Below, one piece after another: positions 39,239-41,802 of a stretch of 64,000 bases of DNA. The DNA comes from Gemmatimonadota bacterium (GTDB lineage: Bacteria; Latescibacterota; UBA2968; UBA8231), in the NCBI GenBank assembly GCA_009840005.1, contig VXOR01000042.1, positions 8,163-72,162 on the forward strand, in the 5' to 3' direction. Numbering within the stretch: the first letter of the stretch is position 1; the number at the start of each line of letters is the position of its first letter. A program made the translations under genes and the position numbers. A model generated the notes under the pieces. The model was not told where the DNA came from. It did not search any database and saw nothing but the letters and a program-made list of their open reading frames with translations.

Positions 39239-39616
39239 GTGGCTGTAACAATTATGCGTACAGTGCGGCCTAGTCCGCAATGGCAAGACAGCTTGATCCG
39301 AATAGCGAGCGGCCAGCGGGTCGTCATCGACGCGGAGGAAACTTGGTCGCCGGACATGCGCAACCAAATCGCCTGGTGTGGTGCCGATGGCTTGTACAAC
39401 TTGCCGGCTGGCGAGGGGTATCTCCTGCCTGGGGCCAATGTCGGCGCACTCATAGCCCGCATCGGCGACGACGGGCCGACTTTTGCCGTGGGTAGCCGCT
39501 GCGACTTTATTGCCGATCACGCGGGCATTCTGCATCTGGCCATGAACGAAAATCCGAGCTTCAACAACCAAGCTGGCAAAATCGTCGCCCAAATCATCGT
39601 CTTTGGCCAACCATGA
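39239..39616 (+). CDS. LecA (PA-IL)-like carbohydrate-binding protein
   Basis: 125 residues starting at GTG 39239, with AGAAGG upstream. The core GLYNLPAGEGYLLPGANVGA and LIARIGDDGPTFAVGS, followed by LHLAMNENPSFNNQAGK, resembles the LecA (PA-IL) galactose-binding lectin fold, with the Asn/Asp cluster of the calcium site in NENPSFNN. No signal peptide is seen. Its stop overlaps the start of the kinase-like gene (ATGA), so it leads the operon that contains the DUF5069 selenoprotein candidate. It may bind sugars or serve as a domain of unknown role. Confidence 0.7.
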   Translation: MAVTIMRTVRPSPQWQDSLIRIASGQRVVIDAEETWSPDMRNQIAWCGADGLYNLPAGEGYLLPGANVGALIARIGDDGPTFAVGSRCDFIADHAGILHLAMNENPSFNNQAGKIVAQIIVFGQP

Positions 39617-40650
39617 GCCTCGCCGACGGCGCGGCGACCGCAGCCTATGTGCGTGCGGGACATCCGCCCGTTCGCGCGATCGCTCCGCTCGCCGAAGGGG
39701 TCTGGCGCATCGAAGACGCAGATGGTCGTAAGGTCGTGGTCAAACATCAGCTCTTCGGCAGGCTGACGCAGGGCACGGCTTACGACCTGTTGGAGGTCGA
39801 GCGCGACGTGCTCGGCTTCTTGCACAGAGCGAGTTGTCCGGTGCCGACCGTGCTGGGTATTGATCGGGAAGCGCACTACATTTTCTTGCAATGGGTCGGC
39901 GATCGCACCCTCGACGACGCCATTCAAGACGGGGACCGTGCGGCGACGATGCAGGCCATACGCGGGCTATGCGCCATTGAGCGTGCGTGCGCCCAACGCG
40001 CCGACCAGCTAGCACCGAGAGTCGTTCCAAGCGCCAACCGTGCGGCCTTAGCCGCCGCTTGGGACGAGGCGGGCGCGCAGGCGCGTGCTGGCATCGAACA
40101 GCTATGCCGCCGTCTCCAGCAGCCCTTAGACGCTGGGATACAGCCGCTACTCGAAACCATGCACGGCTGGCTAGCGACGCGGCCAGCCGCGCTGGGCAGC
40201 GTAGATTACAACGCGCGCAACGCAATCGTCGAGCCGGAGGGAACGCGCATCTACTTTCTCGAATTTGCCAAAATTGGTTGGGACTGGACGGAACGACGCT
40301 TGACGCAGTATACTTCAAGTATGGGTAGCGGTCGGCAGGATGGGCGCATGCGCTCGCTGCTGGACGCGTCCGCAGCGCGTTTATACGCCGAGAAATCCGG
40401 GCGCAGCGACGGGGCGCGGGCGCTCGATTATCACCGCATTTTTTTTCTTTTGAACAGCGCAGCCCTGTTGTGCGCAGCCCTCGACGGCGAGCCGCACGCT
40501 CAGGCCCTGCGCCAACACTGGAAAAGGCCCCATGCGCGGCTGCGGCAATGCGCGGCCATGCTGGCCCAGGGCCTGAGCACAGACTCAAGTGTAGCCGAGT
40601 TCAGAAGCCGGTTGCAATTTTGTATATCACCACGCGGAGGTACCCTATGA
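39613..40650 (+). CDS. Aminoglycoside-phosphotransferase-like kinase
   Basis: 345 residues with a degenerate protein-kinase-like fold. GVWRIEDADGRKVVVKHQLF holds the ATP-binding Lys, GSVDYNARNAIVEPEG corresponds to the catalytic D-x-x-x-x-N loop, and YFLEFAKIGWDWTERRL takes the place of the metal-binding D-F-G (Glu for Asp). The substrate is unknown. It is coupled by ATGA to both neighbours: the lectin upstream and the DUF5069 gene downstream. No resistance function should be assumed. Confidence 0.65.
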   Translation: MSLADGAATAAYVRAGHPPVRAIAPLAEGVWRIEDADGRKVVVKHQLFGRLTQGTAYDLLEVERDVLGFLHRASCPVPTVLGIDREAHYIFLQWVGDRTLDDAIQDGDRAATMQAIRGLCAIERACAQRADQLAPRVVPSANRAALAAAWDEAGAQARAGIEQLCRRLQQPLDAGIQPLLETMHGWLATRPAALGSVDYNARNAIVEPEGTRIYFLEFAKIGWDWTERRLTQYTSSMGSGRQDGRMRSLLDASAARLYAEKSGRSDGARALDYHRIFFLLNSAALLCAALDGEPHAQALRQHWKRPHARLRQCAAMLAQGLSTDSSVAEFRSRLQFCISPRGGTL

Positions 40651-40913
40651 GCGAGTGGAACACTCTCGACTTCAAGCCCCGGGCCCGGGGTATGATCATC
40701 GGCGATATTCCCTGGCTGGCGCGGATCGCCGACAAAGCGCGGGCGCACCAGCAGCAACGCATCGGCGACTACGTATTTCCCTGACCGGCTGACAAGCACT
40801 TCCTGGAGGAAGTGGAGCTAACAGCCGCAGCATTCGAGGAGATGGTAGCCTCGTCCGCAGACGACGATGCCCTGATCGAAAAGATGAAAGCGCACTTGGC
40901 CGGAAAGCACTAG
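40647..40913 (+). CDS. DUF5069-family selenoprotein (in-frame TGA = Sec46)
   Basis: 88 residues if TGA 40782-40784 is selenocysteine; as a stop it would leave a 45-residue stub. The first part, IPWLARIADKARAHQQQRIG-DYVFP, and the second, PADKHFLEEVELTAAAFEEM, together match DUF5069, whose conserved motif is Y-x-x-P/N-C-P-x-D: the TGA is exactly at that Cys (DYVFP-U-PADK). GGAGG is six bases before ATG 40647, which overlaps the kinase stop (ATGA). A SECIS-like hairpin follows at 40797-40814. The frame then runs clean to TAG, one base before the next ATG. Function of the family is unknown. Confidence 0.85.
40797..40814 (+). promoter_or_regulatory. Bacterial SECIS-like hairpin (DUF5069 gene)
   Basis: CACTTCC-TGGA-GGAAGTG: a perfect seven-base-pair stem with a four-base loop whose second base is G. 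There are 19 bases between the TGA and the loop, within the 16-37 range of bacterial SECIS elements. The hairpin is inside the coding frame, as in all bacterial selenoprotein mRNAs. Confidence 0.8.
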
Positions 40914-40914
40914 T

Positions 40915-41802
40915 ATGAGCACCTCAGCGCAAACCGTGCGCACGCCAAGGCGGAGAGTCAGGGAGATGGAGGTGGAGGTCGTCCACGTACGCCGCGACAC
41001 CCCAGACACCACTACGCTTTTTATGTCGGCTGGTGACGAGCCAATCGAATACGAGGCCGGCCACTTCTGCACCATTGATCCGCATCAGTTCGGCGAGTTG
41101 GAGCACTTCACCGCCTATTTAGAAGATCAAAAGGGACAGCGGGAAAAGCCGCGGGCCTATTCCATGGCTTCTGCGCCTCACGAGGAGCACCTCGCCATCA
41201 CGATCAAAGAGGAGCGCTACGAGAGCGGCGAGACGCCGTACCCGCCGCTGTTGTCGCCGCTGTTGACGTACTACATCCAAGAGGGTCGGCGGCTAGTCAT
41301 CAGCGGCTTTACCGGGGCGTACACCTTTCCCGCCGATGTCTGCGAGCGCGTCGAGCACATTGTCCACGTGTGCGCTGGCAGCGGCATCGTGCCCAACCGG
41401 AGCCTGATCGTGGAAAGCCTGCATCGCGCCGATCCGCTTAGGCACACCTTGCTATTTAGCAACAAGACGCGCGGCGACGTCATTTACTTCGAGGAATTCG
41501 ATGCACTGCGGGCGCAGTATCCCGACCAGCTCGAAGTCATCCACTGCATCACCCGCGAGGACCCAAGCGGCATTCGCGGTGCCCGCAGCGGACGCATCTC
41601 CGAGGAACTCTTGCGCGAAGTCGCGCCCGACCCCTCCAAAGTGATGGCCTATAGCTGCGGCCCGGGCATCACGCCTTACGAGCGTCGGGCGGCCCGGGCC
41701 AAAGGCGAGACTCCCGAGCCGCGCTTCGTCGAAAACATGGTCGCGCTCTTGCAGGAGCACGGGCTGGACAAAAAGCAGATCCGGCAGGAAAGCTGGGGAT
41801 GA
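40915..41802 (+). CDS. Ferredoxin-NADP reductase-like flavin oxidoreductase
   Basis: 295 residues. The FAD-binding motif is KPRAYSMASAPHEEH and the NAD(P)-binding part is VCAGSGIVPNRSLIVESL with MAYSCGPGI near the C-terminus. This is the FNR-like fold that passes electrons between NAD(P)H and a protein or small partner. No iron-sulphur domain is attached. It begins one base after the DUF5069 stop, so it is probably made together with that protein; a redox link between the two is inference. Confidence 0.85.
   Translation: MSTSAQTVRTPRRRVREMEVEVVHVRRDTPDTTTLFMSAGDEPIEYEAGHFCTIDPHQFGELEHFTAYLEDQKGQREKPRAYSMASAPHEEHLAITIKEERYESGETPYPPLLSPLLTYYIQEGRRLVISGFTGAYTFPADVCERVEHIVHVCAGSGIVPNRSLIVESLHRADPLRHTLLFSNKTRGDVIYFEEFDALRAQYPDQLEVIHCITREDPSGIRGARSGRISEELLREVAPDPSKVMAYSCGPGITPYERRAARAKGETPEPRFVENMVALLQEHGLDKKQIRQESWG

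Follow-up and report, generated by a model that had tools for sequence, protein, structure and literature searches.

A short DUF5069-family protein of Latescibacterota as a probable selenoprotein, with relatives in Poribacteria

The closest described systems are the selenoproteins with a bacterial SECIS hairpin (bSECIS) compiled in a 2026 catalogue (PMC13188914). These have an in-frame UGA at the position of a Cys in their homologues and a hairpin loop with G in the first two bases, 16-37 nt downstream, and Sec machinery is present; most characterised selenoproteins have a thioredoxin-like fold. The rules given there are a loop of 3-9 nt, a stem of 4-16 bp, a G in the first two loop positions, a spacing of 16-37 nt behind the UGA and an energy of -7.5 kcal/mol or lower. 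The DUF5069 gene analysed here resembles the catalogued genes in its UGA at a Cys position, its hairpin with the loop G and spacing just given, its Cys homologues and the Sec machinery in the genomes of relatives; its protein model consists of helices only, unlike the thioredoxin-like fold. Two further systems are close. Cys-type DUF5069 proteins, which include the crystal structure 3omd from Leptospirillum rubarum, differ in length (145 residues versus 88) and in carrying Cys instead of Sec. SelD of the relatives' genomes shares with the DUF5069 gene an in-frame TGA, but is a known selenoprotein, unrelated in sequence, and the fold downstream of its TGA is built in another way.

Neither DUF5069 nor its Pfam accession PF16798 is among the 119 families or subfamilies in Table 1 of the catalogue, and DUF5069 does not occur in its text. 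Several catalogue entries are hypothetical proteins known by NCBIfam number; because the protein studied here matches no NCBIfam model at E 0.1, an entry under another name is unlikely. Neither 'DUF5069' nor 'PF16798' is mentioned in any of 5.39 million open full-text papers, and a search for Latescibacteria or Poribacteria together with selenocysteine found no description of a DUF5069 selenoprotein in the passages retrieved. The original prediction, made from the sequence alone, knew of no published description, and within this scope that still holds. Within the reach of these searches the DUF5069 selenoprotein family counts as new; its mechanism is an already known one.

The DUF5069 frame and its hairpin

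The gene lies in a 64,000-nt stretch of DNA, here called the window, with the following features.

39613-40650, forward strand: upstream gene, 345 aa, no Pfam family; its stop overlaps the DUF5069 start (ATGA)
40636-40640, forward strand: Shine-Dalgarno GGAGG, 6 bases before the ATG, read from the window sequence
40647-40913, forward strand: probable selenoprotein gene of the DUF5069 family; 88 residues, of which number 46 is Sec; stop TAG 40911-40913
40782-40784, forward strand: proposed Sec codon UGA, where homologues have Cys, in the motif DYVFP-U-PADK
40797-40814, forward strand: putative bacterial SECIS hairpin, 7-bp stem 40797-40803/40808-40814, loop UGGA 40804-40807
40915-41802, forward strand: FNR-like NAD(P)H oxidoreductase (PF00175) gene, downstream of the DUF5069 gene after a gap of one base

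Translation of the window confirmed that the frame 40647-40913 is interrupted only by TGA 40782-40784 and yields 88 residues before the TAG. The good Shine-Dalgarno sequence and the frame end one base before the next ATG (40915), both part of the original prediction, were likewise found in place. Reading the TGA as Cys gave a product that scored 47.9 bits against PF16798 (gathering cut-off 27), residues 11-84 matching profile positions 4-77 of 133; it is thus a short form without the C-terminal part. The window protein itself contains no Cys. No tRNA was detected in the 64-kb window, nor any Rfam match over the gathering score, and its DNA is closest to eight loci (L001-L008) with 88-93% identity over 3.4-6.3 kb.

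The hairpin stem starts 12 bases behind the TGA and its loop 19 bases behind it; the predicted 7-bp stem with loop UGGA was therefore correct, as was the distance of 19 bases for the loop but not for the stem. The hairpin agrees with the bSECIS rules of PMC13188914 throughout, including the loop distance and the loop G that the prediction had named, with energies of -8.4 kcal/mol for the stem-loop alone and -16.7 kcal/mol for 45 nt. Its z-scores as a single sequence were -2.36 and -2.26 (two lengths). Our own script found that 82 of the 1648 TGA triplets on both window strands satisfy the published rules, and the single-sequence statistic was therefore rejected as proof. Judged on this one sequence, the hairpin is only modest evidence.

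The codon and the selenocysteine machinery across relatives

A first search of species genomes found a stop at the site in 19 of 19 loci, TGA in every case. Sequencing error was rejected on this recurrence in 19 of 19 public contigs, and a decayed gene on the open downstream frame under purifying selection. For a wider comparison every site scoring at least 90 bits was extracted from the window and the loci and weaker matches were dropped, giving 120 sites that include near-duplicates and loci overlapping the same gene. The aligned codon was TGA at 107, TGC at 10 and TGT at 3 sites. TAA and TAG were found at none of the 120, so that the other codons or stops named beforehand as speaking against Sec did not appear. 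Counted by genome, 36 of 64 Latescibacterota carry the short gene with TGA and 7 carry it with Cys, the short-form gene being absent from 21; the corresponding figures for 84 Poribacteria are 71, 6 and 7. Direct reading of the codon covered all 36 Latescibacterota and 53 of the 71 Poribacteria with TGA; the remaining 18 were counted on the single in-frame TGA reported by the genome search.

When the read-through protein was used as query, 43 of 46 protein matches had Cys at the site. The other three were P0045 with Trp, P0047, which ends at the site, and P0046, which loses the frame before it. The proposed alignment of TGA with Cys was thus borne out for the homologues reaching the site, P0045 excepted. 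This protein represents a 54-member cluster very close to the Poribacterial forms; its Trp is possibly a TGA translated under code 4 by the gene caller. A query with the 45 residues before the TGA gave 31 protein matches, 28 of which are 44-45 aa long and end at the proline preceding the site, implying a stop there; one of these short matches is deposited for a Latescibacterota under the name 'hypothetical protein'. In a pool of 22 selected pairs of TGA genes, some of which share a member, pN/pS was 0.136 before the TGA and 0.270 after it (codons +5 to +10 left out), which indicates that the frame behind the TGA is kept as protein, though under looser constraint. The gene hence has an in-frame UGA aligned with the Cys of homologues, homology on both sides of it, and a TGA retained in relatives across species. 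A quick tree of 129 short proteins requires four Sec/Cys changes, at least two of them forced by starred branches, and is silent on their direction.

These data bear on the reading of the UGA as a true stop, with a 45-residue peptide as product and the downstream frame as decay or chance. The 28 of 31 short database proteins are what such a stop would leave, and TGA is an ordinary stop in the window, where it terminates 20 of 34 large ORFs. Nevertheless, the codons downstream stay open and evolve under purifying selection, with a pooled pN/pS of 0.27, the downstream part continues the DUF5069 match, Cys forms are fused without a break, and neither of the other stop codons occurs at the extracted sites; the reading is very improbable. 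The view that the UGA yields Trp or Cys instead of Sec, by reassignment or by read-through, could draw on the Trp of P0045, which the gene caller could explain. It would have to account for the TGA-terminated window ORFs just mentioned, for Cys in all other homologues that reach the site, for a fixed and covarying hairpin (see below) of which a reassigned code has no need, and for relatives' genomes with selA, selB, tRNA-Sec and a selD with in-frame TGA, and we consider it scarcely credible.

The Sec machinery was searched for in 19 genomes, those holding the loci of the first search. A tRNA-Sec of 65-78 bits is present in 17; the 65-bit line was drawn after the gap had been seen, because all 14 control genomes score at the loose threshold and five pass the cut-off. 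The other two, G007 with 47.0 bits (just at the cut-off) and G017 with 43.6, lie in the range of other genomes' second-best matches. selA, selB and selD are each over the cut-off in 16 of the 19 genomes, the genomes below it being G007, G013 and G017 for selA, G002, G007 and G017 for selB, and G007, G014 and G016 for selD; several of these cases show fragments. The lack of sel genes that had been named as an argument against the prediction was therefore not what near relatives showed. In G007 none of the three genes is over the cut-off. Its locus, L007, sits on a 20-kb contig of an 'Alphaproteobacteria' bin and is 92.9% identical to the window over 3.4 kb, from which we conclude that the contig is probably misbinned. 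All 16 selD matches over the cut-off (L065-L080), from both Latescibacterota and Poribacteria, contain one in-frame TGA each, and the motif around it is CGG-U-ASK or CAG-U-ASK.

Across the two phyla, selA matches reaching E 1e-30 were found in 36 of 36 Latescibacterota with TGA (G060, with a fragment below the cut-off, is counted here), in 6 of 7 with Cys and in 4 of 21 gene-less genomes; the comparison of TGA genomes with all others (10/28) gives a Fisher p of 3.6e-9. Among Poribacteria, selA reaches this limit in 64 of 71 genomes with TGA (G017 being counted on its fragments), in 5 of 6 with Cys and in 3 of 7 gene-less ones, with p 0.018; both p-values are inflated by shared ancestry. Since selA is also found in 6 of 7 and 5 of 6 Cys-form genomes, it does not predict Sec over Cys. 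The seven TGA Poribacteria without a selA match are perhaps incomplete bins; one of them, G013, has selB, selD and tRNA-Sec. A Poribacterial selA with an in-frame TAA (G086, C45, 3723-5078) was also observed, possibly an assembly error.

Constraint on the hairpin

Across relatives the hairpin is conserved far beyond chance. A stem of 5-7 bp under UGGA is formed in 89 of 90 unique TGA genes; the remaining gene, L131, has six pairs and a wider loop, CUGGAU, with G third. Loss of the hairpin with the TGA kept, another sign against Sec named at the outset, was thus not encountered, L131 being a variant. The exact sequence TTCCTGGAGGAA is present in 86 of 89 TGA genes and in none of 13 Cys genes (102 unique 75-mers), and twelve nucleotides form a fixed SECIS core common to both phyla. 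Codon by codon (+6 to +9, in 89 TGA genes, L211 with its 3-nt insertion being left out), TTC and CTG are each used in 89 of 89, GAG in 88 of 88 with Glu at +8 and GAA in 86 of 86 with Glu at +9, while all other degenerate positions of the stretch show at least two codons for the commonest residue. The 13 Cys genes use two codons for Phe and five for Leu in +6 to +9. Pooled pS is 0.106 in codons +5 to +10 versus 0.577 in the remaining codons after the TGA.

Pairing in the outer stem was counted in 47 unique 24-mers. Pair P1 is formed in 47, with C-G, G-C and A-U variants, P2 in 41 and P3 in 24, each above all of 1000 shuffles (maxima 39, 32 and 22). With the partner slid by 1-3 bases, 14-49% of pairs form, as against 81% in register (68 unique 27-mers). 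Related sequences are included in these counts, which are inflated by shared ancestry and do not represent independent events. When the energy is calculated for the bare contiguous stem-loop, 12 of 90 TGA genes, the window included, pass the limit of -7.5 kcal/mol. Longer stretches of 58 nt, one from the window and 19 from other loci, all fold at -8.8 kcal/mol or lower, and in two of these 20 (L013 and L016) the minimum-energy fold lacks this hairpin. As the hairpin is weak in most relatives, recognition would rest on sequence, shape and position more than on stability.

Two loci deserve mention for themselves. In the Poribacterial L211 an extra codon stands between the TGA and the hairpin; the core is kept and the outer stem is wholly re-paired (A-U, U-A, G-C). 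The Cys gene L119 has a 7-bp stem where TGA genes have their SECIS element, with a loop UACA lacking the G, perhaps a relic of a Sec ancestor.

The claim that DUF5069 includes selenoproteins is supported by the exclusivity of TGA and Cys at the site in DNA, by purifying selection to either side of the UGA, by the constraint and covariation in the hairpin and by the relatives' Sec machinery, and we regard it as highly probable that 40647-40913 of the window encodes a DUF5069-family selenoprotein. A ribosome arriving at UGA 40782-40784 would meet the hairpin with its UGGA loop 19 bases downstream; SelB carrying Sec-tRNA-Sec would bind it, and the UGA would be decoded as Sec46, giving the 88-residue protein in place of a 45-residue fragment. 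In sister lineages a Cys occupies this position. That Sec is actually inserted at the UGA is our inference from comparative sequence data.

The residue, its neighbours and its possible role

In the predicted structure, which has helices only, helix 47-55 begins just after Sec46. When the model was searched with Foldseek, no match reached E 0.001; 3omd, which headed the results, was the only match standing clear in VIA, and it is without an assigned function. In 56 DUF5069 domains of longer proteins the aligned column holds Ser in 32, Cys in 19, Ala in 4 and Thr in 1. Judged from these alignments, the Sec/Cys residue is not universal in DUF5069 but is conserved in the short subfamily. The original prediction had called the conserved Cys probably catalytic: conservation stood for the short subfamily and failed for DUF5069 domains as a whole, and catalysis would be a further step. 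Latescibacterota also possess proteins in which three DUF5069 domains stand in tandem. Of a set of 13, seven (L093, L094, L096, L097, L099, L101 and L103, the others being L105, L106, L108, L110, L111 and L113) carry Cys at the site in the middle domain and Ser in both outer domains, as if one domain had kept an active residue.

The genes around the short forms were compared at 38 chosen loci. The window has two ORFs upstream in 39239-40650 (125 and 345 aa), neither with a Pfam family over the cut-off, and relatives of these stand beside Sec and Cys forms elsewhere. A relative of the upstream gene lies upstream of the Sec forms L001, L008-L010, L132 and L133 and the Cys forms L114, L115, L119 and L124; the FNR-like gene is also found beside Sec forms L001 and L008-L010 and Cys forms L114 and L124. 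Other Latescibacterota have neither the upstream gene of the window's clade nor the FNR-like gene, and in Poribacteria the downstream gene is a different one, which we take by eye to be a chorismate mutase/prephenate dehydratase. Since neighbours vary by lineage at these loci, the neighbourhood was set aside as a general guide to function.

Placed before helix 47-55 in the model, Sec46 could be a low-pKa selenolate acting as a one-Sec redox centre, a proposal that we see as about evenly balanced. Because the window protein has no Cys, such a centre would need an outside reductant, and the adjacent FNR-like flavoprotein is a candidate electron donor in the window's clade. Ser or Ala at the site in other DUF5069 domains and the lineage-dependent neighbours count against redox catalysis. 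Sec46 may instead be a ligand or binding residue (for metal, heme or a selenium carrier), the protein being a scaffold or a regulator, which we hold to be a serious minority possibility. It would suit the absence of a second Cys from 62 of 77 Sec proteins, the helices-only model with 3omd, itself of unknown function, as its single clear match, and the Ser in 32 of 56 other domains. On the other hand, a second Cys occurs in one motif in 26 of 55 Cys forms versus 11 of 77 Sec forms, a hint at redox partnership that is not decisive. Our best guess, guided by the model, remains a redox protein built of helices only, in which the selenolate caps a helix.

For the biology of these bacteria, the finding adds a family to the bacterial selenoproteome and singles out one residue to study in a family without known function, whose crystal structure 3omd is unexplained. 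It also reveals that the site is misannotated systematically, many 45-residue scraps in the databases ending there. The twelve-base SECIS core of two phyla offers a small, clean test system for the reading of hairpins by SelB. Many members of Latescibacterota and Poribacteria live in sponges. PMC5649159 reports an enrichment of SelA and SelB in sponge symbionts, and the DUF5069 protein would supply a concrete Sec target in such bacteria. Finally, we propose tentatively, at a little short of even chances, that DUF5069 is a new class of selenoenzyme on a small, all-helical, non-thioredoxin scaffold, in which the residues flanking the SECIS core covary with base pairing; being so widely kept in both phyla, the selenoprotein may help to maintain their Sec machinery.
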